From a virus, in IMG/VR virus record IMGVR_UViG_3300037502_000514, positions 1 to 27,904 of that record: a stretch of 27,904 nt of DNA; one strand, given 5' to 3'. Every line of letters starts with the position of its first letter. The stretch's first letter is position 1. The notes beneath the pieces were generated by a model. The model worked only from the letters and a program-made list of their open reading frames with translations. It searched no databases and had not been told where the DNA came from. The position numbers and the translations under genes are program-made. Positions 1,107 through 21,072 of the stretch are shown here, piece after piece.

Positions 1107-1530
1107 CCCTGATACCCTCCTCAAACTATTCAGACAATACAAGACTTGGGTAAAAGACAATCCACGATACAAGTACACACTAAACCAAAGAAGCGGAGAG
1201 ATGGTTGCAGAACCGCTTGAAGTTCCCTTGTCAATGGAGGGGTTTGAGGTGTGGGCATTCGAGAAACACGACCTTTGGATTGAGCATTATATTAAGAATA
1301 CTAATGAAGCCTACGAAGAATTTTGCTCCGTCTCTACATATATAAAGCGAGAAATACGCTCAGACCAAATCAACGGAGGCTTAGTAGGTCAGTACAATGC
1401 GAACTTAACCGCACGTTTAAATGGACTAACTGAGAAGACTGAGACTACAGTAACGATGGAGATGCCGTTGTTTCCTGAAGAACCAAAAGCAATAGACGCA
1501 GATGTTCAAACGAACTACCTCGATAAATAA
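1072..1530 (+). CDS. terS: Terminase small subunit (DNA-packaging protein)
   Basis: The 152-residue protein begins MAKVGRPRKIDSPDTLLKLFRQYK, with a basic DNA-binding start and a helix typical of small terminase/gp3-type packaging proteins. The centre (about 52-75) contains VPLSMEGFEVWAFEK, and a long helix with VSTYIKREIRSDQINGG follows. The NLTARLNGLTEKTE segment near residue 110 is a common C-terminal feature of TerS proteins. It lies immediately upstream of the large subunit and overlaps it by 29 nt, as expected for the pair. TerS would recognise the packaging site and load the large subunit. The call rests on these motifs and on position. Confidence 0.82.
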   Translation: MAKVGRPRKIDSPDTLLKLFRQYKTWVKDNPRYKYTLNQRSGEMVAEPLEVPLSMEGFEVWAFEKHDLWIEHYIKNTNEAYEEFCSVSTYIKREIRSDQINGGLVGQYNANLTARLNGLTEKTETTVTMEMPLFPEEPKAIDADVQTNYLDK

Positions 1531-2662
1531 AATCCTCTCTCTAAAAAGACGGATTAAAATCATTCAAGGCGGAACCTCGGCTGGAAAGACTTTTGGAATC
1601 CTTCCGATACTTATAGACAAATGCACTAAAGAAAAGGGCTTAGAAGTCTCCGTAGTAGCTGAGACGATACCTCACTTGCGTAGAGGTGCGCTTAAAGACT
1701 TCCTGAAGATAATGCGATGGACTAATCGTTACTTTGACGATAGGTTCAATAAGACCTTGCTCAGATACGACTTCGCTAATGGCTCATCAATAGAGTTTTT
1801 CTCAGCAGACGATGCCAGTAAGCTACGAGGTGCGAGACGTGACATCTTATACATCAACGAGTGCAACAACGTAACATTCGAGGCATACAACGAATTAGCT
1901 ATCCGTACCAAACGTGAGGTCTACTTAGACTTCAATCCTGCGAATGAGTTTTGGGTACACAAGGAACTAAAAGACGAACCCGACACGGACTTCATCATCT
2001 TAACCTACAAAGACAACGAAGCATTAGACGAATCAATCGTAAGTCAGATAGAAAAGAACCGTGACAAAGCAGCTACGAGTTCTTACTGGGCAAATTGGTG
2101 GAGAGTCTACGGACTTGGAGAGGTAGGTAGTCTTGAAGGAGTAGTGTTCAACAATTGGAAGGAGATAGACACGATACCTGATGAGGCTAAGTTGGTAGGC
2201 ATCGGACTTGACTTCGGTTACACGAATGACCCTACTGCTGCGATAGGAATCTACAATTGGAATGGAAAGCGAATAGTAAACGAAATTGTTTACCGAACTG
2301 GTATGGTCAACTCAGACATCGCTAAGATACTTCCGTTAGGTGTGATTATTTACGCTGATAGTTCTGAGCCTAAATCAATCGAGGAGATAAGACGCTACGG
2401 AAAGACGATAAAAGGAGTGACTAAGGGTAACGACTCTATCAACTACGGTATTGACGTAATGCAAAGGCAGGAATATTTAGTAACCAAATCAAGTACAAAC
2501 CTAATCAAAGAGCTGAGGAGTTATTGTTGGGATACTGACAAGCAAGGAGTCAGGATGAACAAACCGATAGACCACTTCAATCACGCTATTGACGCACTAC
2601 GTTATCACGAGATGGAAGCACTCGGACTAAAATCAAACTATGGACAATACAACATCCGATGA
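1502..2662 (+). CDS. terL: Terminase large subunit
   Basis: The 386-residue packaging motor contains both enzymatic halves. The ATPase half has Walker A GGTSAGKT (residues 23-30), Walker B DILYINE with the catalytic Glu at 120, and a coupling motif LDFNPAN at about 152-158. The RNase H-fold nuclease half has the acidic residues D237 (GLDFGYTNDP), D286 (YADSSEP) and D364 (HAIDALRY). The layout resembles PBSX-type large terminases. The protein would pump DNA into proheads through the portal and cut the concatemer. It overlaps terS upstream and the following small gene by 23 nt. Confidence 0.96.
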   Translation: MFKRTTSINKILSLKRRIKIIQGGTSAGKTFGILPILIDKCTKEKGLEVSVVAETIPHLRRGALKDFLKIMRWTNRYFDDRFNKTLLRYDFANGSSIEFFSADDASKLRGARRDILYINECNNVTFEAYNELAIRTKREVYLDFNPANEFWVHKELKDEPDTDFIILTYKDNEALDESIVSQIEKNRDKAATSSYWANWWRVYGLGEVGSLEGVVFNNWKEIDTIPDEAKLVGIGLDFGYTNDPTAAIGIYNWNGKRIVNEIVYRTGMVNSDIAKILPLGVIIYADSSEPKSIEEIRRYGKTIKGVTKGNDSINYGIDVMQRQEYLVTKSSTNLIKELRSYCWDTDKQGVRMNKPIDHFNHAIDALRYHEMEALGLKSNYGQYNIR

Positions 2663-2825
2663 ACTACCGAAAATGATACGGGTAGTCGAGCAGTATATCA
2701 AAGACAAGACTGGTAAAAGAGTGCAGATTGTGTTCAATGATATATTCAATGTGAGAAGACATACTCAGATGTTGGCGCAGGCATATGCCTATGTGTTACA
2801 AAAAGACGAATCACAAGTTAAATGA
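2640..2825 (+). CDS. Small protein of unknown function downstream of terL
   Basis: The 61-residue product (MDNTTSDELPKMIRVVEQYIKDKT..., then FNDIFNVRRHTQMLAQAYAYVLQ) looks like a compact helical protein. It overlaps terL by 23 nt and the following tail gene by 4 nt (ATGA), and codon use resembles that of the neighbours, so translation is probably real. I see no recognisable motif or membrane segment. It may belong to packaging or tail assembly by position only. Confidence 0.6.
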   Translation: MDNTTSDELPKMIRVVEQYIKDKTGKRVQIVFNDIFNVRRHTQMLAQAYAYVLQKDESQVK

Positions 2826-3583
2826 TTATGGAAGTACAAATAAAAGTTCCTACTGACCTAAACGAAATACCACTAAAGCACTATCAGGACTTTTTGAAAG
2901 TGCAGCAGAACTCTACTGACGAGGAGTTCATAGCTCAAAAGATGGTGGAGATTTTCTGCGGTATTCGATTAACTGAGGTGGCTAAGATAAAACTAAAGTC
3001 GCTCAACGAATTGATAGCACACTTCACTCAGCTATTTAGTCAAGTGCCTACATTCAGTCCTACATTCAAGATTAAGGATATGGAGTTCGGCTTTATTCCT
3101 GAGCTTGAGGAGATAACTTTCGGTGAGTATGTCGATTTGGATAATCACCTGCAGAGTTGGGATAACTTCCACAAGGCGATGGCGGTGTTGTATCGACCTA
3201 TCAAAACACGAAACAAAGAAAAGTACGACATTCACGACTACGACCCAAACATCGGAGCGCAAGACCTAATGAAGTACGCTCCATTAGACGTTTGCATAGC
3301 AGCATCGCTTTTTTTTTACAATTTAGAAAACGACTTACTGCAAGCTACCCTGAACTTTTTGGAGAGGGAGATGAAGAAGGAGAAGACCATATCGCAGACT
3401 TTAGCGAAACAACTCAATTTAGCAAACGATGGGGATGGTATCAGTCACTATATGCACTTGCTAAAGGAGACGTCACAAAATTTGATGACATTGCCAAATC
3501 GAGACTTACTAAATGTCTCACCTATCTCACATTCGAGAAGCAAAAAAACGAAATTGAAAGAAGACAACTTGAAAGACAACTAA
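2822..3583 (+). CDS. Tail assembly chaperone, zero frame (gpG-like)
   Basis: The 253-residue ORF opens with MIMEVQIKVPTDLNEIPL; the second Met at 2828 is an alternative start. Residues 10-125 form a domain with LKHYQDFLKV, FCGIRLTEV and an FGEYVDLDNHL stretch, in the style of phage tail assembly chaperones that act on the tape measure protein. At residues 163-166 the codons CTT TTT TTT TAC read through a run of nine T. From there the −1 frame is also open to 3591 and encodes a second conserved-looking chaperone domain. The zero-frame tail (ENDLLQATLNFLERE..., GDGISHYMHLLKETSQN) also looks like a real amphipathic protein. Two products of about 253 and 256 residues are therefore possible. Confidence 0.75.
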   Translation: MIMEVQIKVPTDLNEIPLKHYQDFLKVQQNSTDEEFIAQKMVEIFCGIRLTEVAKIKLKSLNELIAHFTQLFSQVPTFSPTFKIKDMEFGFIPELEEITFGEYVDLDNHLQSWDNFHKAMAVLYRPIKTRNKEKYDIHDYDPNIGAQDLMKYAPLDVCIAASLFFYNLENDLLQATLNFLEREMKKEKTISQTLAKQLNLANDGDGISHYMHLLKETSQNLMTLPNRDLLNVSPISHSRSKKTKLKEDNLKDN

Positions 3584-3591
3584 GACGATGA
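3292..3591 (+). CDS. Tail assembly chaperone, −1 frame extension (gpT-like)
   Basis: This open frame lies inside the preceding gene, −1 relative to it. It encodes an acidic GEGDEEGEDHIADF linker and then FSKRWGWYQSLYALAKGDV, TKFDDIAK and CLTYLTFEKQKNEIE. The WGWYxxxYxLAxGDxxxFDxxxxLxxxxxLTxLxxEK pattern is a familiar phage tail chaperone signature, so this frame is almost certainly translated. It has an ATG at 3292, but entry by −1 slippage on the T run (new frame starting with TTA at 3316) is more likely and would add 91 residues to the first 165 of the upstream gene. The ORF ends with TGA at 3589-3591, overlapping the ATG of the next gene. Independent initiation cannot be excluded. Confidence 0.78.
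   Translation: MHSSIAFFLQFRKRLTASYPELFGEGDEEGEDHIADFSETTQFSKRWGWYQSLYALAKGDVTKFDDIAKSRLTKCLTYLTFEKQKNEIERRQLERQLRR
3309..3317 (+). other. Nine-T slippery run for −1 ribosomal frameshifting
   Basis: Nine consecutive T residues follow C3308. Read in the zero frame as CTT TTT TTT TAC they contain the heptamer T TTT TTT, where both tRNAs can re-pair after slipping back one base. The slip moves translation from the 2822 frame to the frame with the WGWY chaperone signature. No obvious stimulatory pseudoknot was worked out. Slippage by polymerase during transcription or sequencing is another way such a run can vary. Confidence 0.65.
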
Positions 3592-4043
3592 AAGGATTTT
3601 ACGACATAACAACCAAACTCAAAGACCACTTTATTGCTGACCCTATTGTTAACACGGTAACGGAGGGAGATATCTTCGAGGTGGACTTAAACAAGCAGAC
3701 TATATTTCCGCTTGTGCATATGATTGTCAACAACGCATCGTTTGAAACTAATGTAGTGCGTTTTAACATCTCATTGTTAGCAATGGACATCGTTGATATC
3801 AGCAAGAAAGCAACGACTGACGTGTTTCGAGGCAACTCAAATGAGCAAGATGTGCTGAACACTCAATTAGAGGTCTTAAATCGAGCGTATGCGCTAATGC
3901 TACACGGTAACTTGTGGGATGATAAGTACGTTGTTGACGGCAATCCATTGTGTGAGCCGTTTACTGAGCGTTTCGAGAACTACTTAGCTGGTTGGACTAT
4001 GACTTTTGATGTGCTAATCCCTAACGATGTTACAATCTGCTAA
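3588..4043 (+). CDS. Putative tail completion/terminator protein
   Basis: The 151-residue product starts MKGFYDITTKLKDHFIADP and has a beta-rich core with VDLNKQTIFPLVHMIV, FNISLLAMDIVD and a C-terminal WTMTFDVLIPND. NEQDVLNTQLEVLNRAYALM is a helix in the middle. This pattern is very common in structural clusters of Bacteroidetes phages, as I recall, and size and position resemble tail terminator or head-tail joining proteins. The specific role is inferred from position between the tail chaperone and an HK97 gp10-like gene, to which it is joined by a one-base stop/start overlap (TAATG). Confidence 0.6.
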   Translation: MKGFYDITTKLKDHFIADPIVNTVTEGDIFEVDLNKQTIFPLVHMIVNNASFETNVVRFNISLLAMDIVDISKKATTDVFRGNSNEQDVLNTQLEVLNRAYALMLHGNLWDDKYVVDGNPLCEPFTERFENYLAGWTMTFDVLIPNDVTIC

Positions 4044-7954: not shown

Positions 7955-8118
7955 TGAAGATACAACAAATAATAGCAATGCTTCAGCTTGACAATCACTA
8001 TGGGATTAGTGAGTCAGTTGACATAGCCAAAGGAAAATACAAGCTACACACGTCTTTGAAGAAGGCAATTAAACAAGGTAAACGAGAACTTATAAACAAA
8101 CGAAATGGCGGAAACTAA
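7954..8118 (+). CDS. Small basic protein before the tape measure gene
   Basis: The 54-residue ORF starts on the last A of the preceding stop codon (TAATG) and ends 14 nt inside the tape measure gene. It reads MKIQQIIAMLQLDNHYG, ISESVDIAKGKYKLHTS, LKKAIKQGKRELINK. It is the only open frame that fills this 150-nt gap. The coupled start and compact charged sequence favour a real gene, with unknown function. Confidence 0.5.
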   Translation: MKIQQIIAMLQLDNHYGISESVDIAKGKYKLHTSLKKAIKQGKRELINKRNGGN

Positions 8119-9994
8119 AACAATAAATCTTGATATACAAAGCAACTTAGGTTCTCTAAGGAGTCAATTAAGACAAGCACAAGCGGAAGTAGCTGCGTTA
8201 TCCGATAAGTTTGGTGCTACATCGCGTGAGGCTGCTGAGGCTGCTAAAAGAGCTGCTGAATTAAAAGATAGAATAGAGGATGCAAAAAACCTAACGGATG
8301 CGTTTAATCCTGATGCTAAGTTCAACGCTTTAAGCCGTTCAATTGGAGGTGCATTAGATGGATTTCAAGCATTTGAGGGTGCGATTGGATTAGTTGGTGT
8401 AGAAAGTGAAGCACTACAAAAAACACTACTGAAAGTGCAATCTGCAATGGCTTTATCGCAAGGCGTGCAGGGTGTAATGGAGGCTAAAGATAGCTTTATT
8501 CAGTTAGGAGCGGTTGTTAAAAACGCTTTTGCAGGTATGACTACCGCATCAAAGGTGTTCTTAGCTTCAGGTATTGGTTTAGTTGTTGCTGCATTAGGCT
8601 TACTTATTGCTAAATGGGATGATGTTAAAGCAGCTTTAACACCTGCAACCGCACAGGCTCAAAGATTTGCTACATCTACTGCTGAAAGTGCAGAGGCTGC
8701 TCGTTCTGCCTTAGCCAACTTTGATGAGTACGAAAAGACTTTAAAACGCTTGGGATATACTGAAGAGGATATTGCAGAAAAACGGAAGAAAAGATTTAAA
8801 GAAGCTATTGATAAAAGTAAGCAGGAATTACAAGCAGCAGAAAAGTTATACAAAAGCCAAAAAAGAGATTTAGAATCCGTAAAAATATTCGATAAATTAG
8901 GTCTAAATGCTACTGGACGCTTATTTTATGGCGATGAGGAAACTGCAAAAGGACAAAGAAAGCACGTTGCTGAGTTAAGAAAGCAACTTGAGAAGCTAAA
9001 AAATGACGAATACGCAATGCGTCAGCAGGCTAAAGAAGCAAGAAAACAAGAACAAGAAGATAATAAAGCTGAATTAGAACAAAGAAGGAAAGAAGCTGAG
9101 GATAGAGCAAAGGATGCATCACAAAAACGAAAAGACGAACTTGCACTAATCGCTCAGTATAACCGTGAGGCAACCGACTTATTTAAATCTGAATACGAAA
9201 AACAAGTCAGAGATATTAATGAAAAGTATGCGGCTCAAATTGCATTAGCAAAAAAGTACAATAAAGATATTAAAGATTTAGAGGCGGCACAAGCTAAAGA
9301 ACTTGAAGATGCTTTAGATAAATCAATGAAGCCTATTGAGACTTTATCTTTACAAAAATTCCAAGTTCAACAAAGAGATTTAGGAAATTTAAGAGGCTCC
9401 ATAAACACGGAGCTACAAGCAAAGCAAGAGGCTGCAGATTTAGAAATTGACATCCTACAATCAAAAGCAGACAGAGCAAGAAGAATAGAAGAGCAATCAC
9501 AATCGTTTAAAGTAAAGGCAACTCTTGACGGATTGGCTGCAGTAGCTTCAATCGCTGAGTTATTCGGTAAAAAATCAGAGGCTGCTGCCAAACGTGCGTT
9601 TCAAGTACAAAAAGCGGCTAACATTGCAAGTGCTTTAATTACTACTTATCAAAACGCTACAAGTGCTTACGCTTCGCAGTTTACACCTATCCCAACTCCT
9701 GACTCCCCAATTCGTGGTGGTATCGCAGCAGGTATTGCAGTAGCTTCAGGCTTGGCTAACGTAGCTAAAATATCTCAACAAAAGTTTGAGGGCGGTGGTT
9801 CTACAGGTGGCGGGGGCGGCACAGGTGGTGGTTCTATTCCGTCAGTATCGCCATCGTTTAACGTAGTCGGCAATTCAGGTATGAATCAGCTTGCACAAAT
9901 TCAGCAAACGCCAGTACAAGCATTCGTAGTATCAGGAGAGGTAACATCTGCTCAGGCACTTGACCGCAACCGAATCAAAAACGCAACATTGTAA
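8105..9994 (+). CDS. Tail tape measure protein
   Basis: The 629-residue protein has the usual tape measure layout. The N-terminal coiled coil (about 1-65) is rich in Ala, Arg, Glu and Gln, with LGSLRSQLRQAQAEVAAL. An Ala-rich central part follows, then a hydrophobic membrane-inserting segment, KVFLASGIGLVVAALGLLIAKW, at about 148-169. A long charged coiled coil extends over roughly 200-440. The C-terminus is Ala-rich with ASIAELFGKKSEAAAKRAF, then a PDSPIRGGIAAGIAVASGLANV segment, and ends with a Gly-rich stretch (GGGSTGGGGGTGGG) and a beta tail. It would set tail length and pass into the host membrane during DNA ejection. At 629 residues it implies a fairly short tail. It sits downstream of its chaperones, but several tail genes separate them, which is unusual. 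Confidence 0.88.
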   Translation: MAETKTINLDIQSNLGSLRSQLRQAQAEVAALSDKFGATSREAAEAAKRAAELKDRIEDAKNLTDAFNPDAKFNALSRSIGGALDGFQAFEGAIGLVGVESEALQKTLLKVQSAMALSQGVQGVMEAKDSFIQLGAVVKNAFAGMTTASKVFLASGIGLVVAALGLLIAKWDDVKAALTPATAQAQRFATSTAESAEAARSALANFDEYEKTLKRLGYTEEDIAEKRKKRFKEAIDKSKQELQAAEKLYKSQKRDLESVKIFDKLGLNATGRLFYGDEETAKGQRKHVAELRKQLEKLKNDEYAMRQQAKEARKQEQEDNKAELEQRRKEAEDRAKDASQKRKDELALIAQYNREATDLFKSEYEKQVRDINEKYAAQIALAKKYNKDIKDLEAAQAKELEDALDKSMKPIETLSLQKFQVQQRDLGNLRGSINTELQAKQEAADLEIDILQSKADRARRIEEQSQSFKVKATLDGLAAVASIAELFGKKSEAAAKRAFQVQKAANIASALITTYQNATSAYASQFTPIPTPDSPIRGGIAAGIAVASGLANVAKISQQKFEGGGSTGGGGGTGGGSIPSVSPSFNVVGNSGMNQLAQIQQTPVQAFVVSGEVTSAQALDRNRIKNATL

Positions 9995-10014
9995 CAATTA
10001 AAAGTTGAATAGAT

Positions 10015-10590
10015 ATGAACGTAATTGAATTAATCATTGACGAAAAAGATTTTCAAAGCGGTATCAATGCCGTTTCCGTAGTAGAATCACCTGCCATAGA
10101 GGAAAACTTTGTAGCCTTAGCAAAACACGAAGTAGAACTCAAAGAGGTTGACAAAGAGAAACGCATCCTAATGGGAGCTGCTTTGATACCTAATAAAAAA
10201 ATCTATCGTGTAAACGCAAAGAAAGAGGAATACTACATCTACTTTTCGGAGGACACGGTGCGTCAAGCAATGGAGTTGTTCTTTAAAAACGGAAACCAAT
10301 CTAACGCAACCTACGAACACAAGGATGCAGTCAAAGGAATGACCGTAGTAGAGTCTTGGTTGATTGAAGATGAGGTACACGACAAATCTAAAAAGTACGG
10401 CTTCAGCTTACCAAAAGGAACTTGGATGATTTCCATGAAGGTAGACAACGATGAGGTATGGACTGACGTGAAAGCTGGCAAGGTTAAAGGCTTTTCAATT
10501 GAGGGTTATTTTGCTGATAAGTTAGAAATGTCTTTAGAGCAACAAAAGAAAAATGAAATTATTAATCAACTTAAAGAATTACTTAAATAA
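10015..10590 (+). CDS. Prohead protease, XkdF-like (peptidase S78-type)
   Basis: The 191-residue protein shows the XkdF/S78_2 protease pattern. VVESPAIEENFVAL is at about 22-35, ILMGAALIPNKKIYR at 51-65, an EEYYIYFSEDTV strand at 71-82, YEHKD with catalytic His102, VVESWLIED with Glu114, and GKVKGFSIEGYF with nucleophile Ser161. A helical C-terminus (LEQQKKNEIINQLKELLK) could bind scaffold. It would process the scaffold and capsid N-termini during maturation. The gene begins the head block, 20 nt after the tape measure gene. Residues 35-42 (LAKHEVEL) are closely matched in a protein encoded nearby. Confidence 0.85.
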   Translation: MNVIELIIDEKDFQSGINAVSVVESPAIEENFVALAKHEVELKEVDKEKRILMGAALIPNKKIYRVNAKKEEYYIYFSEDTVRQAMELFFKNGNQSNATYEHKDAVKGMTVVESWLIEDEVHDKSKKYGFSLPKGTWMISMKVDNDEVWTDVKAGKVKGFSIEGYFADKLEMSLEQQKKNEIINQLKELLK

Positions 10591-10591
10591 G

Positions 10592-10798
10592 ATGAGCAAA
10601 TTCAAAACACCAAGTAAAGCAAGTCCAAGAGCAGGTAGCAAAAGAGGCTGCCTATGTGAAGACGGAACATACTCAACTAAATGTTGTGATGGCAGTTTAC
10701 AAGCTCAAGGCATCGGTAAAACTGCTGAGGTAAACGAACCTGCTCCTACTCAAACTGAGAACAACGGAGTAAGGACTATTGTTCGTCAAAACGGATAG
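10592..10798 (+). CDS. Small Cys-rich phage protein (RGCLC...CCDGSL motif)
   Basis: I place the start at the ATG at 10592, one base after the protease stop, giving 68 residues; an earlier in-frame ATG at 10553 would lie inside the protease gene. The core is KRGCLCEDGTYSTKCCDGSL followed by QAQGIG, with C20, C22, C31 and C32. This 'GCLCxDGTYSxxCCDGSxxAQGIG' signature turns up in small genes of many Bacteroidetes phages, as I recall, and is well preserved here. The Cys cluster suggests metal binding or disulphides. Function is unknown; position suggests a virion or assembly role. Its stop codon abuts the stop codon of a convergent gene. Confidence 0.75.
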   Translation: MSKFKTPSKASPRAGSKRGCLCEDGTYSTKCCDGSLQAQGIGKTAEVNEPAPTQTENNGVRTIVRQNG

Positions 10799-11020
10799 TT
10801 ATAGTTTTTCTATTTCTTCTTTGACTTCTTCAATAAATAAGAACTTGTCAAATGCTTCTGATAAATCTCCTGTGATAAATTCTTTAGAAAATTCAACTGC
10901 AATTAATGCACTTCGTTTTGCACTTTCCAATGACATATGAAAATAATAGCATTTTTTTTCTTCACAATGTTCAACTTGCATATTAGTAATTAATTCTTTT
11001 GCCTTTTCTTTAGGTGTCAT
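10799..11020 (-). CDS. Small MTPKEKAKEL-type phage protein on the opposite strand
   Basis: The 73-residue protein starts MTPKEKAKELITNMQ and contains SAKRSALIAVEFSKE, ending EEVKEEIEKL. The frame 'MTPKEKAKEL...K.(A/S)A.IAVDEI...EVK.EIEKL' is a small phage-encoded family I recall from flavobacterial phages. This one has an extra HCEEKKCYYFH insertion before the SAK helix. It is the only convincing minus-strand gene in the window and lies between two head genes. Its own consensus promoter stands just upstream (11036-11067). It ends base-to-base against the stop codon of the plus-strand gene at 10798. It may be a moron-type gene expressed apart from the late operon. Function is unknown. Confidence 0.75.
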   Translation of the reverse strand: MTPKEKAKELITNMQVEHCEEKKCYYFHMSLESAKRSALIAVEFSKEFITGDLSEAFDKFLFIEEVKEEIEKL

Positions 11021-11035
11021 AGGATAATTTTAAAG

Positions 11036-11067
11036 CAAACATAAATATAAAAAATACAACAAGCAAA
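11036..11067 (-). promoter_or_regulatory. Bacteroidetes-type promoter for the minus-strand gene
   Basis: On the minus strand, TTTG (complement of 11064-11067) is followed by a 20-nt spacer and TATGTTTG (complement of 11036-11043). This is an exact fit to TTTG-N19-21-TAnnTTTG. Transcription would begin roughly 10 nt before the gene's start codon at 11020. The match supports independent transcription of the small antisense-oriented gene. Confidence 0.65.
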
Positions 11068-11087
11068 ATTTAAATAGTTATATACAT

Positions 11088-11438
11088 ATGAACACTACAA
11101 AATCAGTTTACAACAAGTTATTTAAAGAAGAGGCTACTGAGCTTGCTTCTCACGAAATTGAATTAGGTCTTATTGATGAAATATCTAAGGAATTAGACGC
11201 TGCTTACAAACAACAAGATGTTGAAAGTGAGTTAATATCAATTATGTCTAAAATGGACAAGGCTATTGGTATGTGCAATATAGTTATTCAAAAGGGTGAA
11301 AAAACACTTGCTCAAATTAAAGAATTAGGCATTGGTGGTGGATTCGATAAAAAAGTTGCTGACCAAATTAAAGAAGCTGAACAACTTAAAAAATCAGTAG
11401 ATTTTAGAGTTTCATCAATTAACAAAGTAAGAAAATAA
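11088..11438 (+). CDS. Head-region protein of unknown function
   Basis: The 116-residue, mostly helical protein starts MNTTKSVYNKLFKEE and continues ATELASHEIELGLIDEISKEL. A long coiled-coil-like segment follows to the end. It lies between the prohead protease and the scaffold-like gene, so a part in prohead assembly is likely. The LASHEIEL segment at 19-26 matches LAKHEVEL at 35-42 of the protease in 6 of 8 residues, which could be a shared interaction or cleavage site. The 67-nt gap before it contains the minus-strand promoter and no clear plus-strand one. Confidence 0.65.
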   Translation: MNTTKSVYNKLFKEEATELASHEIELGLIDEISKELDAAYKQQDVESELISIMSKMDKAIGMCNIVIQKGEKTLAQIKELGIGGGFDKKVADQIKEAEQLKKSVDFRVSSINKVRK

Positions 11439-11444
11439 AAACAA

Positions 11445-12053
11445 ATGAACGAAAAATCAATCTTAAACAAAGTCCGCACACTTTTAGGTTTAGAAGTAAA
11501 GTTGGAAACTATGCTCCTTTCAGACGGAGTATCTATGCTTGAAGCAGATGCTTTTGAAGCAGGTCAACCTGTATTTATCCTAACTGAAGACGAACAACGC
11601 ATCCCACTTCCTGTTGGAGAGTATGAGTTAGAAGATATGCGTGTTTTGGTAGTTATCGAAGAAGGCGTTATCGCTGATGTTCGTGAAGCTGCTGAACCTG
11701 AAGTTGAAGTAGAAGTTGAAGCACCTGAATCTGAAGCTCCTGCAGTAGAAGAAGAAGTTGCTGCATCTAATGAAGCTCCACAAGCTAAAAAAATCATTGA
11801 GTCTATTGTTAAAGAATCTTTCTTCAGCGAAATGGAAGCACTTAAAAAAGAGAACGAAGAATTGAAAGCGAAACTTTCAGCACAAACTACTGAAGTTGCA
11901 GAAGAAGTTGCGCCAGTTGAATTGAGCGAGGAACCTAAGCCTATTTCTTTCAATCCTGAAAACACACAAGCTACTGACGTATTCAAGTTTGCTGCTAAAA
12001 GAAACGCAACAACTATGGATACTGTATTAAATCGAATTGCAAACATTAAATAA
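11445..12053 (+). CDS. Scaffold-like head assembly protein
   Basis: The 202-residue acidic protein has three parts. The N-terminal beta domain (1-75) contains LLSDGVSMLEADAFEAGQPV and EDEQRIPLPVGEYELEDM. A Glu/Val/Pro/Ala-rich low-complexity linker spans 80-115. A coiled coil at about 117-148 (SFFSEMEALKKENEELKAKL) is followed by FKFAAKRNATTMDTVLNRI at the C-terminus. An acidic, helical protein directly upstream of the capsid gene and downstream of the protease is typical of a scaffold. The N-terminal domain, by contrast, is also seen in capsid-decoration-like proteins. It ends 8 nt before the capsid start. Confidence 0.68.
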   Translation: MNEKSILNKVRTLLGLEVKLETMLLSDGVSMLEADAFEAGQPVFILTEDEQRIPLPVGEYELEDMRVLVVIEEGVIADVREAAEPEVEVEVEAPESEAPAVEEEVAASNEAPQAKKIIESIVKESFFSEMEALKKENEELKAKLSAQTTEVAEEVAPVELSEEPKPISFNPENTQATDVFKFAAKRNATTMDTVLNRIANIK

Positions 12054-12061
12054 ATAAAAAA

Positions 12062-13012
12062 ATGGCTACAACCACATCAATTACTACTACTTACGCAGGC
12101 GAGTTCGCAGGTAAGTACATCGCTGCAGCTTTATTGTCTGCACCAACTCTTGACAAAGGAGGCATCACAATTATGCCTAATGTTAAGTACAAGCAAGTTA
12201 TCAAACGTGTTGCTACTGACGGTATCATCAAAAACGCTACTTGTGACTTTGACCCTACGTCAACTATCACTTTGACTGAGAAAATTCTTCAACCTGAGTC
12301 TTTCCAAGTTAACTTACAACTTTGTAAAACTGACTTCCGTTCAGATTGGGATGCTATCCAAATGGGTTACTCTGCATTTGACGTTCTTCCTAAATCTTTC
12401 GCTGACTTCCTTATCGCACACGCTGCTGAGAAAGTTGCTGCAGGTATGGAAACTTCAATTTGGCAAGGTGTTAACGCTACTGCAGGTGAGTTCGCAGGTA
12501 TTATGACTCAGTTGACTACTGATGCTTCTTTGCCTGCTGCACAAGAAGTTGCTGGTACTACTGTAACTGCTGCTAACGTTGTTACTGAGCTTGGTAAAAT
12601 CGTTGACGCTTGCCCTGCTGCTCTTTACGGAAAAGAAGATTTGACTCTTTACGTTTCTTCTAACATCTATCGTGCTTACGTTCGTGCGTTGGGTGGCTTC
12701 GCTGCTTCAGGTGTAGGTGCTAACGGTTACGATAACAAAGGTACAAACCAAGTTCTTGGTGACCTTTACTTTGATGGTGTTCGTGTATTTATGGCTAACG
12801 GTCTTGCTGCTAACACAGCTTTATTGAGCCAAAAATCTAATCTTTACTTTGCTACAGGTCTTCTTTCTGACTTGAACGAAGTTAAAGTATTGGATATGGG
12901 TGACATCGATGGTTCACAAAACGTACGCGTAGTTATGCGATTTACTGCAGACGCTAAATACGGTTTTGCTTCTGACGTTGTTACTTACGGAATCACAAAC
13001 TCTGCTAACTAA
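12062..13012 (+). CDS. Major capsid protein
   Basis: The 316-residue product begins MATTTSITTTYAGEFAGKYI and matches the style of Bacteroidetes phage capsid proteins: KGGITIMPNVKYKQVIKRV, PESFQVNLQLCKTDFRSDWDA, FADFLIAHAAEKVAAGMETSIW, LTLYVSSNIYRAYVRAL and YGFASDVVTYGI at the end. The long Ala/Glu spine-like helix near 120-140 and the terminal strands fit an HK97 fold, which I infer rather than prove. Codon use is more uniform than in the neighbours (GCT, AAC, TTC, CTT favoured), as expected for the most abundant virion protein. An A-rich leader precedes the ATG. A strong intrinsic terminator follows within 60 nt. Confidence 0.9.
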   Translation: MATTTSITTTYAGEFAGKYIAAALLSAPTLDKGGITIMPNVKYKQVIKRVATDGIIKNATCDFDPTSTITLTEKILQPESFQVNLQLCKTDFRSDWDAIQMGYSAFDVLPKSFADFLIAHAAEKVAAGMETSIWQGVNATAGEFAGIMTQLTTDASLPAAQEVAGTTVTAANVVTELGKIVDACPAALYGKEDLTLYVSSNIYRAYVRALGGFAASGVGANGYDNKGTNQVLGDLYFDGVRVFMANGLAANTALLSQKSNLYFATGLLSDLNEVKVLDMGDIDGSQNVRVVMRFTADAKYGFASDVVTYGITNSAN

Positions 13013-13035
13013 TCTTAGCTAAACTCAAATAATCG

Positions 13036-13068
13036 GGGAGGGCGGTAAAAAACTTCCCTCCCTTTTTT
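13036..13068 (+). terminator. Intrinsic terminator after the capsid gene
   Basis: GGGAGGG (13036-13042) can pair with CCCTCCC (13056-13062) around a 13-nt loop, followed at once by six T. It lies 24 nt after the capsid stop and before the tail-tube-like gene, in the same orientation, so it is likely a partial terminator tuning downstream expression. Confidence 0.8.
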
Positions 13069-13090
13069 ATAACATTTAAAACTTAAAAAT

Positions 13091-13633
13091 ATGTCTTGTG
13101 ATTTAGCAAATGGACGCTTGGAAGTATGTAAAGACGCAGTCGGTGGTATCGATGCGGTATACTTCGTTAACTACAATGACTACACTTCTATCACTTACGA
13201 TGGTGTTAATACTGACGTTATCGATTCAGTAGCTGGTGTAGCTTCTCTCTACAAATACGAACTCAAAGGAACTAACTCTTTTGAGCAAGTCGTAAACTCT
13301 TCTCGTGAAAACGGAACTACATTCGTTGAGCAAACTTTGACAATGACTTTAAAGAAGCAAGATGCTACTACACACAAGTCAGTTAAATTGTTAGCTTACG
13401 GACGTCCTCACGTTATCATCCGTAACCGCAACAATCAATTCTTCTTTGCAGGTCTTGAGCACGGAATGGAATTGACTACTGCTAACGTATCTAACGGAAC
13501 TGCAATGGGTGACCTTAACGGCTACACTTTGACTTTCGTAGGTCAAGAGCAATTACTTGCAAACCTTATCGATGTATCTACTGAAACTGCTTTAGCAACT
13601 GCTTTCGGTTCCGCTACTATCGTAACTGCTTAA
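13091..13633 (+). CDS. Putative major tail tube protein
   Basis: The 180-residue beta-rich protein starts MSCDLANGRLEVCKDAVGG and continues IDAVYFVNYNDYTSITYDG. Residues 75-95 read SRENGTTFVEQTLTMTLKK and 115-125 AYGRPHVIIRNRN, then FFAGLEHGMELTT and LNGYTLTFVGQEQLL. The alternating strands, the central EQTLTMTLKKQD and the final G-x-x-LTFxGQE hairpin resemble tail tube proteins, which stack as hexameric rings. Codon use is as biased as in the capsid gene, consistent with a high-copy structural protein. It is bracketed by intrinsic terminators at 13036 and 13659, which sets it off as its own expression step. The tube role is inferred, not certain. Confidence 0.65.
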   Translation: MSCDLANGRLEVCKDAVGGIDAVYFVNYNDYTSITYDGVNTDVIDSVAGVASLYKYELKGTNSFEQVVNSSRENGTTFVEQTLTMTLKKQDATTHKSVKLLAYGRPHVIIRNRNNQFFFAGLEHGMELTTANVSNGTAMGDLNGYTLTFVGQEQLLANLIDVSTETALATAFGSATIVTA

Positions 13634-13658
13634 TCGTTTTCTTCATAGCGTGGAAAGA

Positions 13659-13681
13659 GGGTGGCTTTGGCTGCCCTTTTT
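13659..13681 (+). terminator. Intrinsic terminator after the tail-tube-like gene
   Basis: GGGTGGC (13659-13665) pairs with GCTGCCC (13670-13676), with two G-U pairs and a TTTG loop, followed by five T. It lies 25 nt past the stop codon. The sequence CATAGCGT just before it (13645-13652) recurs before the terminator at 21111. Confidence 0.75.
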
Positions 13682-13720
13682 GCATTTAAAACAAATCGGT
13701 ATCATCTTAGTTACTTTAGT

Positions 13721-14050
13721 ATGATTGTACTAACTACATCTACATCAGCTCAGACTTTCTCGTTTATTCCGAGAGATACACCTACTTCAATGGTGCTGAC
13801 TGACGACCAAACGAACACACCAGTAACGGTAGCTATCACATCGCAAACAAACGGCGACTATGTGAAAACAATTACGGCTACTTTCGCTTTAAAAGAAGGA
13901 CATTTTTACGATTTGGTACTTTACAAAAACACGGACATCGTTTACAAGGATAGAATCTTTTGTACTGACCAAAACATCGTAACATTCTCAGTAAACAACG
14001 GAGAATACACATCTAATACTACATCAAATACGTTCATAGTTTATGAGTAA
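13721..14050 (+). CDS. Small virion-associated protein, unknown
   Basis: I start this at the ATG at 13721, giving 109 residues. A longer reading from GTG at 13661 would begin inside the terminator hairpin. The protein begins MIVLTTSTSAQTFSFIPR and contains TNTPVTVAITSQTNGDYV, FALKEGHFYDLVLYKN and IVYKDRIFCT. It is an all-beta pattern with immunoglobulin-like strand spacing. It overlaps the portal gene by 8 nt. Similar short proteins accompany head-tail genes in Bacteroidetes phages, as I recall. A structural or tail-appendage role is likely but not defined. Confidence 0.65.
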   Translation: MIVLTTSTSAQTFSFIPRDTPTSMVLTDDQTNTPVTVAITSQTNGDYVKTITATFALKEGHFYDLVLYKNTDIVYKDRIFCTDQNIVTFSVNNGEYTSNTTSNTFIVYE

Positions 14051-15815
14051 CAACGTACACGTCTTAAACCTATCTGCATACACTACTCCCGTCATTCAGG
14101 AGAGTAAGCGTGATGCGTGGGTTGACTTTGGAGAAGACAATAACTACTACTCTTTCCTCTTGGATAGATACACGAACTCCACTACAAACAACGCAATCAT
14201 TAATAACATCTCACGTCTTGTCTATGGTCGTGGCTTATCAGCAGTCGATGCTTCTCGTAAGCCTAACGAATATGCTCAGGCAATGGCTTTATTCAATAAG
14301 GAGTGTTTACGTAAAATTGCTCTTGACCGCAAAATGCTTGGTCAGTTCGCTATCCAAGTACACTACAACGACAAACACGATAGAATCCTAAAGGCTTACC
14401 ACATTCCTGTAAATCTTTTGCGTGCTGAGAAGTGCAATAAAGACGGAGAAATCGAAGCTTACTACTATTCTGACGATTGGACTGACGTAAAGAAATACGT
14501 ACCTAAGAGAATCCCTGCTTACGGATATTCTAAAGAAAAGATTGAGATACTATTCTCAAAGCCTTACGCAGTAGGAATGAAATACTACGCTTATCCTGAC
14601 TATCAAGGTGCAGTTCCTTACACACTTTTGGAGGAAGAGATAGCTGATTATTTAATCAACGAGGTTCAGAACGGCTTTTCAGGAACTAAGGTGGTCAACT
14701 TCAACAACGGAGTACCAACTGAGGAGCAACAATCAATCATCACAAACAAAGTTTTAAGTAAGTTGACTGGTAGCAAAGGTCAGAAAGTTATCGTAGCGTT
14801 TAACGACAATATGGACACTAAAACTACGGTAGACGATTTACCTTTAAACGATGCTCCTGAACACTACACTTACTTATCTGAGGAGTGTATGCGTAAGATA
14901 ATGCTCGGACACAACGTAACATCTCCGCTTCTTTTTGGGATTGCAGGTGCTAACGGCTTCTCGTCTAACGCTGATGAGTTACAAAATTCGTTTATCCTAT
15001 TTAACAATATGGTGATTAAGCCACTTCAAGACGAAATACTTGAAGCCTTAGACACTATCTTAGCATTTAACGGAATAACACTCAACTTATTCTTTAAGAC
15101 GCTTAAACCGCTTGAATTTACCGATTTGGAGAACGCTCAAAACCAAGAGCAAGTAGCTGAGGAAACTGGAACGGAACTAAGCAAGCACAATCATTTAAGC
15201 GAAGAGGTAGCAGATGCCTTGATTGAGTTAGGTGAAGAACCTGCTGAGAATTGGCTTCTAATAGACGAATTCCCTGTTGACTATGATAATGACGATGCAG
15301 AGAATGAACTACTCTCTAAAGAGCCTAAAAAGAGCTTATTTAGCAAATTAGTTGAGCTTGTAAGTACAGGTGATGCACGTCCAAACATTACAAGTAAGCA
15401 AGATAAGGTTATTGACGGAATCAAGTTTGTAACTCGTTACGAATATGCAGGAAAGACAAACGATAAATCTCGTGGATTCTGCCAAGCTATGATGAAAGCT
15501 AAAAAGGTTTATCGTAAGGAAGACATCTTAAAAATGAGCAATCAGCCAGTTAATGCAGGATGGGGTCCTAATGGAGCATCTACTTACAACATTTGGTTGT
15601 ACAAAGGTGGAGGTAACTGTCATCATATGTGGTTCAAAAAGGTTTATGCTCAGTTTGAGGGTAAGGCTTTAGACATTCCTAATGCAAAACAAATCGCATC
15701 TCGCAAAGCAGAGAAATACGGGTATGTAATCAAGAATGAATCTTTGGTTGCACAACGTCCTGTTGATATGCCTTACAACGGCTTTTTACCAACTAATCCA
15801 ATATACGGCAAATAA
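14043..15815 (+). CDS. Portal protein with extra C-terminal domain
   Basis: The 590-residue protein has a portal body over about 1-430. Recognisable parts are YTNSTTNNAIINNISRLVYGRGL (25-47), LDRKMLGQFAIQVHY (98-112), an alpha/beta core, and the channel-helix region YLSEECMRKIMLGHNVTSPLLFGI (about 278-301) with FSSNADELQNSFILFNNMVIKPL. The C-terminal part (about 455-590) is a separate domain: GIKFVTRYEYAGKTN, SRGFCQAMMKAKKVYRKEDI, NAGWGPNGASTYNIWLYKGG, GNCHHMWF and PYNGFLPTNP. This extra domain is shared by Bacteroidetes phage portal or head proteins, as I recall; the Cys/His residues could bind metal. The portal forms the 12-subunit ring through which DNA passes. It lies after the capsid gene rather than next to terminase. 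Confidence 0.88.
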   Translation: MSNNVHVLNLSAYTTPVIQESKRDAWVDFGEDNNYYSFLLDRYTNSTTNNAIINNISRLVYGRGLSAVDASRKPNEYAQAMALFNKECLRKIALDRKMLGQFAIQVHYNDKHDRILKAYHIPVNLLRAEKCNKDGEIEAYYYSDDWTDVKKYVPKRIPAYGYSKEKIEILFSKPYAVGMKYYAYPDYQGAVPYTLLEEEIADYLINEVQNGFSGTKVVNFNNGVPTEEQQSIITNKVLSKLTGSKGQKVIVAFNDNMDTKTTVDDLPLNDAPEHYTYLSEECMRKIMLGHNVTSPLLFGIAGANGFSSNADELQNSFILFNNMVIKPLQDEILEALDTILAFNGITLNLFFKTLKPLEFTDLENAQNQEQVAEETGTELSKHNHLSEEVADALIELGEEPAENWLLIDEFPVDYDNDDAENELLSKEPKKSLFSKLVELVSTGDARPNITSKQDKVIDGIKFVTRYEYAGKTNDKSRGFCQAMMKAKKVYRKEDILKMSNQPVNAGWGPNGASTYNIWLYKGGGNCHHMWFKKVYAQFEGKALDIPNAKQIASRKAEKYGYVIKNESLVAQRPVDMPYNGFLPTNPIYGK

Positions 15816-18934: not shown

Positions 18935-19344
18935 GAGCGTTAATTTTACTTTTGGTTCTTAGTTCGTGTTCGGCTAATTACCACCTACGAAAAGCAATGA
19001 AAAAAGGTTACCGCTGCGAAGAGGTTGCGGATACAATTACAATAAATTCTATTGACTCAATTCCGTACGTTTTAAGGGACTCTATTATGTGGGAAAGGGT
19101 ATTAGTCCAAAAAGATACAATCGTTCGTTACAAGCGTTCTTTTGTGCCAAAAACAAGGTATCAAACAAAGATTGAGTATAAATTGAAAAGAGATACTTTG
19201 AGAATGATTGAAAAAGTAGAGGTAGTTAAGTGGAAAACGGAGAAACAAAAAAACAAAAAACCTAACATTTGGTTATTTATTATAGGATTTGGTTTGGGAT
19301 TTGTCACCAAGTTCCTTCTCAGGTTCTCTAAAACACCACTATGA
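18931..19344 (+). CDS. Unimolecular spanin-like lipoprotein
   Basis: The 137-residue protein starts MRALILLLVLSSCSAN, a short lipoprotein signal with lipobox LSSC (Cys13). A polar, charged periplasmic region rich in alternating basic and acidic residues follows. A single transmembrane segment at 113-130 (IWLFIIGFGLGFVTKFLL) ends in a basic tail. An outer-membrane lipid anchor at one end and an inner-membrane helix at the other is the design of a u-spanin, which fuses the two membranes in the last step of lysis of a Gram-negative host. It follows the endolysin with a 4-nt ATGA overlap, completing a holin-endolysin-spanin cassette. Confidence 0.8.
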   Translation: MRALILLLVLSSCSANYHLRKAMKKGYRCEEVADTITINSIDSIPYVLRDSIMWERVLVQKDTIVRYKRSFVPKTRYQTKIEYKLKRDTLRMIEKVEVVKWKTEKQKNKKPNIWLFIIGFGLGFVTKFLLRFSKTPL

Positions 19345-20408
19345 GGAAACAAAATCGCTATCGCCTTAAGCACGATGAGATTGAAATCATCGAACAATAT
19401 AGAGCGATAAAAGAGGAGTCCAATTCAATGGGCTTGAACGATGCTGACGTTAAACACGGATGGCTAAAATCTAATAAGGCTTCGCTTTTCTTTAAGAATC
19501 CGAACTACAAACCTGAGGAGGAGCAGAATTACGAGCAGATTCGTGCCAGTATCTTAGATGAGATTCGTGAACACGCTCCGAAATATCCTATAATAACACG
19601 GAATCCATCAACTGACGGACACTTATTAGTCATAGACCCTGCCGACATCCACATAGGTAAGCTCTGCGACGCTTTCGAGGTAGGAGAAGTATATAACAAC
19701 CAAATTGCAGTACAACGTGTCTTAGAAGGCGTTCAAGGCATTTTAGACAAAGCAAGCGGATTTAATATCGACAAAATACTGTTTATAGGCGGAAACGACA
19801 TCTTACACATTGATACTCCAAGACGGACTACTACCTCAGGAACTCCTCAGGACACGGACGGAATGTGGTACACTAATTTTCTAATAGCTAAAAAACTATA
19901 TGTCGAAATTCTTGAAAAACTCATTGGGGTTGCTGATGTTCATTTTACTTTCAATCCCTCAAATCACGATTATACTCACGGCTTCTTTCTTGCTGACGTT
20001 ATTCAAACTTGGTTTAAAGACGCTAAGAACATTACTTTTGACTGCTCTATTGCACATCGAAAAGGCTACCAATACGGAAAGAACCTTATCGGAACGACTC
20101 ACGGAGATGGAGCGAAACATCAAGACCTACCTCTATTGATGGCTACGGAGTTTCCTGTTGAGTGGTCTCAAACTAAGCACCGATACGTTTACACGCATCA
20201 CGTTCACCATAAAACTTCTAAAGATTACATCGGTGTTACTGTAGAGTCGTTAAGAAGTCCATCAGGAACTGATAGCTGGCATCATCGAAACGGCTATGCT
20301 CACGTTCCTAAAGCAGTAGAAGGCTTCATTCATCACAAAGAATTTGGTCAAGTCGCACGTTTGACCCATATATTTAGTGCATTATTTTTTGTATCTTTAT
20401 TGATGTGA
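19341..20408 (+). CDS. Calcineurin-like metallophosphoesterase, 3' end altered by insertion
   Basis: The 355-residue protein has the full metal-binding set: D102-x-H104 (DPADIHIG), GGND (150-153), NPSNHD (205-210), H254 (GTTHGDG) and the H-x-H cluster YTHHVHH (284-290). Phage members are often labelled as DNA polymerase II small subunit-like phosphoesterases; their substrate is unknown. The N-terminal 90 residues are helical and charged. The family usually ends near GQVARLTHIF (here residues 336-345), as I recall. The extra ten residues SALFFVSLLM seem to come from an inserted homing endonuclease segment directly after. It is coupled to the spanin by ATGA. Confidence 0.85.
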   Translation: MRKQNRYRLKHDEIEIIEQYRAIKEESNSMGLNDADVKHGWLKSNKASLFFKNPNYKPEEEQNYEQIRASILDEIREHAPKYPIITRNPSTDGHLLVIDPADIHIGKLCDAFEVGEVYNNQIAVQRVLEGVQGILDKASGFNIDKILFIGGNDILHIDTPRRTTTSGTPQDTDGMWYTNFLIAKKLYVEILEKLIGVADVHFTFNPSNHDYTHGFFLADVIQTWFKDAKNITFDCSIAHRKGYQYGKNLIGTTHGDGAKHQDLPLLMATEFPVEWSQTKHRYVYTHHVHHKTSKDYIGVTVESLRSPSGTDSWHHRNGYAHVPKAVEGFIHHKEFGQVARLTHIFSALFFVSLLM

Positions 20409-21072
20409 TAGGCATATATAAAATAACAAACCCAAATGGAAAAATATATATTGGTCAAAGTATCAATATAGAAAAGAGATTTTATAGATATTCTATAATA
20501 TCAACAAACGTAAATAAGCAAACTAAACTATATCGAAGTTTCTTAAAGTACGGAGTTGATAATCATAAATTTGAGATTATAGAACAATGCGGATGTCACG
20601 AATTAAATCAAAAAGAAAGACATTATCAAGAATTTTATAATTGCGTAAATGATGGCTTAAATTGCTATTATACTTCTACAAATGACAAAACTGGTAGTCC
20701 ATCATTAGAGACATTAAAACGAATGTCTGAATCTCAGAAAGGAAATCAAAATTGGCTTGGTAAAAAACATACTGATGAGGCAAAAGACAAAATATCAAAG
20801 TCTAATACAGGAAGAAGATATAGTGATATTGTCAATTTGTCAAAAGGAAGAAAAGGCCGTATTTCAAATAGAAAAGGGATATTTAGCGAAAATCATCCCA
20901 ATAGTAAAAAAGTATTTCAATGTGATTTAAATGGCAACGTTATAAAAGTTTGGCCTTGTATAATGGATATTGTAAGAGAATTAAATTATTCAGCAGGAAA
21001 TATATCGTCAGTTTGTAACGGAAGATTAAAAACATATAAAAAATCAATTTGGAGATTTTAACTCACATTTTT
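20376..21072 (+). mobile_element. Inserted homing endonuclease segment
   Basis: Removing this approximate 697-bp stretch would join ATA TTT (20370-20375) to TAG (21073-21075). The phosphoesterase would then end in THIF-stop, exactly where its family is expected to end. The segment is markedly AT-rich and holds both GGCC sites found outside the lysis genes. It encodes one protein, a GIY-YIG endonuclease. The ends are inferred from this reconstruction; a few bases of ambiguity remain because both flanks carry T-rich, TTTAGT-like sequence. Confidence 0.6.
20405..21061 (+). CDS. GIY-YIG homing endonuclease with NUMOD motifs
   Basis: The 218-residue protein begins (GTG start) with MIGIYKITNPNGKIYIGQS, containing both GIY (3-5) and YIG (15-17) elements and a downstream KRFYRY region. 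NUMOD3-type DNA-contact motifs follow (QKGNQNWLGKKHTDEA, then a KGRKGRISNRKG region). The C-terminus has a NUMOD1-type helix-turn-helix (VFQCDLNGNVIKVW, YSAGNISSVCNGRLKTY, KSIWRF). Such free-standing enzymes cut an uninterrupted site in a related genome and copy themselves in by repair. The GTG overlaps the phosphoesterase stop by 4 nt, so it may be translated by coupling. The low GC and the two GGCC sites set it apart from the backbone. Confidence 0.93.
   Translation: MIGIYKITNPNGKIYIGQSINIEKRFYRYSIISTNVNKQTKLYRSFLKYGVDNHKFEIIEQCGCHELNQKERHYQEFYNCVNDGLNCYYTSTNDKTGSPSLETLKRMSESQKGNQNWLGKKHTDEAKDKISKSNTGRRYSDIVNLSKGRKGRISNRKGIFSENHPNSKKVFQCDLNGNVIKVWPCIMDIVRELNYSAGNISSVCNGRLKTYKKSIWRF

Follow-up and report, generated by a model that had tools for sequence, protein, structure and literature searches.

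The window (the whole stretch of viral DNA that was analysed, 27,904 nucleotides of IMG/VR record IMGVR_UViG_3300037502_000514) contains, after the gene for the terminase large subunit (1502..2662, + strand), an open reading frame at 2822-3583 whose translation gives a protein of 253 amino acids ending at the stop 3581-3583. This frame runs through nine consecutive T's at 3309-3317, the sole T9 in the whole window, with the heptamer T_TTT_TTT at 3310-3316 in the zero-frame phase. Translation shifted at this run to the -1 frame gives a product of 256 amino acids with its stop at 3589-3591, and both products have the first 165 residues in common, in agreement with the two products of 253 and about 256 residues sharing 165 that a preliminary description of this DNA had proposed. 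The gene therefore consists of the shared N-domain (2822..3316, +), which matched PHROG 32199 (unknown function) in 62/62 aligned family members, and two overlapping ends: a zero-frame C-terminal tail of 88 codons plus a conserved stop (3317..3583, +), and a -1 frame C-domain of 91 codons with a WGWY motif (3316..3591, +), seen in protein alignments and helical in its structural model (pLDDT 79). The third frame stops two codons past the T run.

The next gene (3588..4043, +; PHROG 30964, unknown function) starts at an ATG at 3588 that overlaps the -1 stop (ATGA), and the zero-frame stop lies four bases before this ATG. This neighbour is conserved in 232 loci, and the order terminase - slippage gene - orf3588 - orf4043 is broadly kept among relatives. 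The neighbour is 453 nt long in the window versus 648 nt in several close relatives (L013, L022, L037 and L076), where the additional sequence corresponds to an extra C-terminal domain of ~65 residues. The tail length tape measure protein (8105..9994, +) is encoded four genes downstream of the slippage gene in the same direction. It opens a virion region (8105-15815) with an unusual order, namely tape measure, protease (Peptidase_S78_2), a weakly SU10-like capsid protein and portal. Further on, an ORF with a GTG start similar to GIY-YIG/NUMOD homing endonucleases (20405-21061) is found directly after an exonuclease-like gene (19341-20408).

Relatives were collected by scanning IMG/VR with the -1 domain, which gave at least 583 confirmed relatives (80 were kept), by a second IMG/VR scan with the distant isolate P12024L as query (80 more) and by a third scan with only the N-domain, hence blind to the slip site (another 80). 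The pooled set used for the counts of the T run comprised 244 loci, 195 of them distinct at the site. In the species genome collection the N-domain profile detected four loci, all in metagenome-assembled genomes (MAGs), and the -1 domain had no relatives there. One relative (L246) is in a MAG labelled Epsilonproteobacteria that is probably mis-binned, since the other genome matches are Winogradskyella and Bacteroidetes. The source phage is probably a Bacteroidota (flavobacterial-type) tailed phage. Among the matches listed the only isolates with the gene were the Nonlabens phages P12024L and P12024S, and further tblastn searches of isolate phages recovered these two again and no other isolate. 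Among the papers searched, none was found to deal with this family.

The T run and possible ways into the -1 frame

The preliminary description proposed the T9 at 3309-3317 as a slip site, and T9 or T10 was found in all the 244 loci (T9 in 232/244, T10 in 12/244, eight or fewer in none). The N-domain-led scan, which could not be biased by the run, gave the same result in 81/81 readable loci. Two run lengths and three codon phases combine into six arrangements among the 244 loci; where the start of the run is shifted within the codon, other T's restore the count to at least nine. Since the length is kept although the codon phase moves, transcriptional slippage is mildly favoured over slippage of the ribosome. 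Nine A's or T's, when transcribed, yield messages with extra bases (PMC5009743), and in many bacteria selection against slippage-prone runs is apparent at nine A/T (PMC1088944). A conserved A/T run of at least nine, as expected of a gene with transcriptional slippage, is present here across the whole set. Similarly, in Thermus dnaX, Shigella spa13 and IS elements nine A or T lead to two products (PMC1088944, PMC5009743); these are not phage tail genes, and slippage was measured in them while for the gene in the window both the slippage and the ratio of its products are inferred from sequence. A shortage of A9/T9 elsewhere in these phages was considered as additional support for polymerase slippage and dropped, as the run-length spectrum in 1.24 Mb had no clear drop at nine.

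The same two products could be made if the ribosome slipped by -1 on U_UUU_UUU, the mechanism of P2 and lambda, without any participation of the RNA polymerase, and we regard this as a strong contender that falls somewhat short of an even chance. The heptamer is in the correct zero-frame phase, and those phage tail chaperones that have been tested rely on ribosomal slippage (PMC5009743, PMC3711429). However, seven T's suffice for the ribosome, and yet fewer than nine were found in none of the 244 loci, the spare T's changing their codon position from one arrangement to another. The P2-like phages, which share with this gene a T-rich slip site and, on the present reading, a -1 shift and a location in a tail gene (E/E+E' in P2), manage with T6G, T7G or T7C (PMC3931495), against T9-T10 in the family of the window. 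Furthermore, no downstream stimulatory RNA structure was found. Slippage of the RNA polymerase would thus be somewhat the likelier cause, only slightly ahead because amino-acid constraint near the run could explain part of its conservation.

A third way to produce the -1 domain would be its own start codon or reinitiation, with no slippage at all. P12024L and P12024S do annotate a gene from an ATG that overlaps the zero-frame stop, but the -1 domain in the window is devoid of any methionine, and conservation of the FFLxFR block sets in at the T run, before the start annotated in P12024, making this origin very improbable.

Homopolymers are also error-prone, and the preliminary description had pointed out that a run varying in length among clones would betray a sequencing error. 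If the T run simply drifted, by sequencing error or by phase variation through replication slippage, only one of the frames would be real. A length that alters the relation of the two frames was seen in 1/244 loci, L019, where T10 fuses them in frame (478-1239), the sole relative of this kind and either a natural variant or an assembly error. Every other locus, across many independent assemblies, preserves the -1 relation and both frames are constrained, and we reject this explanation as extremely improbable.

Constraint on the two overlapping frames

The openness of the zero frame was evaluated against a null model in which the -1 protein was fixed and synonymous codons were drawn from the phage's own or the local codon usage. 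For the window alone 5.2 zero-frame stops were expected and none was seen (P(none) = 3e-4). The 70 distinct overlaps of its clade gave ~5 expected stops per sequence and 0 before the conserved end (P ~4e-4 each), with a distance of exactly 8 nt from the zero-frame stop to the -1 stop. In the 686 codons where a synonymous choice could form a zero-frame stop, ~427 stops were expected and 1 was observed; the last block of this count extended beyond the zero-frame stop, up to where the -1 frame ends, and we infer that the single case is the second of tandem stops in L064. At the conserved end the codon choice flips, and the stop-making CTA, TTA or ATA is used in 56/56 sequences with a synonymous option. 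For 30 representatives sharing less than 62% identity, the observed openness had a combined P of ~1e-29, a value that assumes independent lineages and serves only as a guide.

Early closure of the zero frame in homologues had been named as an outcome that would contradict dual coding; instead the same end was reached in 78/78 readable close relatives with T9. Over the 244 loci the zero frame stays open for 56-273 nt from the start of the run (median 188). The distant families mostly close it 60-115 nt before the -1 stop, still open for longer than chance, and therefore the description of two frames that stop within 8 nt of each other applies to the clade of the window and is special to it. In the P12024 group the zero frame already ends 55-85 nt past the T run, indicating that the long zero-frame tail is not essential in all relatives.

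The check on synonymous sites past the T run that had been recommended gave a concordant picture. Third-position diversity, taken at codons whose amino acid never changes, fell from 0.41/0.55 (2-fold/4-fold) in N-domain codons to 0.10/0.04 in overlap codons 3-46, and was 0.41/0.58 in the gene that follows. Hence the first ~45 overlapped codons have 4-15 times less synonymous diversity than the flanking coding DNA. Codons 46-66 gave 0.34/0.26 and codons 66-92 gave 0.21/0.34, both based on few codons. First-position diversity in overlap codons 3-46 was not lowered. The suppressed position is thus the one that is silent for the -1 protein but always coding for the zero-frame product, a pattern more in keeping with dual coding than with a signal at the RNA level. 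RNA structure was also discarded as the source of the synonymous constraint, since the consensus fold had only -2.5 kcal/mol and almost no covariation; the folds of single sequences were no better than those of shuffled ones and a search of Rfam gave no match. Zero-frame residue likeness was above the null (z ~17) and so was that of the unused third frame (z ~14), and in a position-specific residue test the silent share of first-position changes was not raised, so that these tests did not separate selection on zero-frame residues from a general conservation of codons. What is observed directly here, besides the sequence and its conservation, is the avoidance of stops and the synonymous constraint, that is, a second frame open beyond chance together with reduced synonymous variation, as would be expected of an overprinted pair. 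The proposed constraint on both readings of a long overlap was supported at this level.

In the last third of the zero-frame tail the residues vary while stops are avoided, so that mainly openness is kept there. The openness of the zero frame might then serve solely to bring unshifted ribosomes to the next gene without premature release, with a functionless peptide as by-product. The zero-frame stop fixed four bases before the next ATG in the clade of the window, its choice by synonymous codons and the variable but stop-free last third would all agree with this. On the other hand, most distant families end the zero frame well before the -1 stop and yet keep it open beyond chance, and the synonymous constraint is strongest in the first 45 codons, far from the junction. 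We consider it unlikely that coupling is the whole explanation. As an addition to a selected zero-frame tail, translational coupling is probably what the extension to the start of the next gene provides in the clade of the window, because this last part keeps its openness while its residues vary.

Comparison with tail assembly chaperones

The gene resembles lambda gpG/gpGT and HK97 gp13/gp14 in having one start, two proteins (here predicted) with a common N-terminal part and a C-domain in the -1 frame, and in preceding the tape measure gene within the virion block. As the preliminary description stated for lambda, in these systems the zero frame stops soon after the slip (15-16 nt past the motif in lambda and HK97, 18 nt in P2), whereas the gene in the window has 88 more zero-frame codons and its whole family stays open far beyond the slip site. 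The slip motif is GGGAAAG or GGGAAAA in lambda and HK97 versus T9 here. In lambda, P2 and HK97 the gene is directly before the tape measure gene; here it follows the terminase, four genes before the tape measure gene, and does not lie between the genes of the tube and tape measure proteins.

No match in sequence or fold to lambda gpG/gpGT or HK97 gp13/gp14 was obtained, no Pfam family was matched above the cut-off, and profile searches gave no link to any named chaperone family. The AlphaFold2 model of the zero-frame product (mean pLDDT 77) has a long helix (155-186) that spans the slip site, two more helices up to residue 221 and a disordered end. Neither this model nor that of the -1 domain resembled a solved structure in PDB sequence and fold searches. 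A library of viral folds returned related uncharacterised phage proteins and one weak match to a named chaperone (E 0.48). Flavobacterium phage 6H, a fold neighbour in this library (E 1.1e-4), was set aside, as the corresponding position has just a T6 run and a -1 domain is not clearly present. PHROG 166, "tail protein", was weakly matched by 9/62 family members. The WGWYxxxYALAxGD stretch that had been taken as a chaperone signature is indeed conserved in the family, as is the -1 domain (FFLxFR...WGWYQS) starting at the T run, but the stretch is not a catalogued signature: the domain has no Pfam match above the cut-off and its PHROG is of unknown function. The slip site and the -1 domain are conserved in the 244 loci, and a putative programmed frameshift with two overlapping C-termini would suit the proposed tail assembly chaperone, while a homology or fold match to one is missing. 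By analogy the gene is most likely a tail assembly chaperone, and membership of the G/GT family is not claimed because no profile or structure match was found.

Altogether, we think it probable that this is a two-product overprinted slippage gene working like lambda G/GT, with its zero-frame tail kept by selection. Most messages would be read in the zero frame, giving the 253-residue protein, and at the T9 a fraction would enter the -1 frame and give the 256-residue protein, which shares the N-domain but ends in another C-domain, also helical. The zero-frame product would continue past the slip with a tail overprinted on the -1 domain and held open by selection. In the clade of the window this tail appears to have been stretched to just before the next ATG, so that ribosomes in either frame would finish there. 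In such a chaperone pair the zero-frame form, with its helical tail, would be abundant and the -1 form, which carries the WGWY domain, scarcer, the N-domain possibly acting on the tape measure protein and the -1 domain recruiting the tube protein. More tentatively, the family may represent widespread Bacteroidota phage tail chaperones based on RNA polymerase slippage at an obligatory T9-T10 in place of ribosomal frameshifting, with both C-termini functional and cooperating in tail assembly, a reading that covers dual coding of up to ~90 codons and two proteins of nearly equal length.

The arrangement is a new architecture for a phage frameshift gene, in that the unshifted frame does not end at the slip. 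Slip-made tail chaperones span the tailed phages, and in the three checked (lambda, P2 and HK97) the unshifted frame ends at once. A frame kept open for up to ~90 codons provides a clear example from nature of long overprinting, which can be tested on hundreds of sequences. The strict T9-T10 also makes it testable whether the ratio of the proteins in phages is set by slippage of the RNA polymerase or of the ribosome. Annotation is affected as well, because in both isolates with the gene it is entered as a pair of hypothetical proteins with no relation to each other (gp40/gp41 in P12024L and gp38/gp39 in P12024S).

The gene of P12024L and P12024S is homologous to that of the window (~25% identity); its T9 has the phase seen in the window, and the -1 domain is shared. 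It differs in that the zero frame closes 27 codons past the run and the next gene does not abut. In P12024L (L082:4525-4530) the zero-frame stop overlaps an ATG of the -1 frame (TAATG), which is the annotated start of gp41, and reinitiation at this point could add a short -1 protein.
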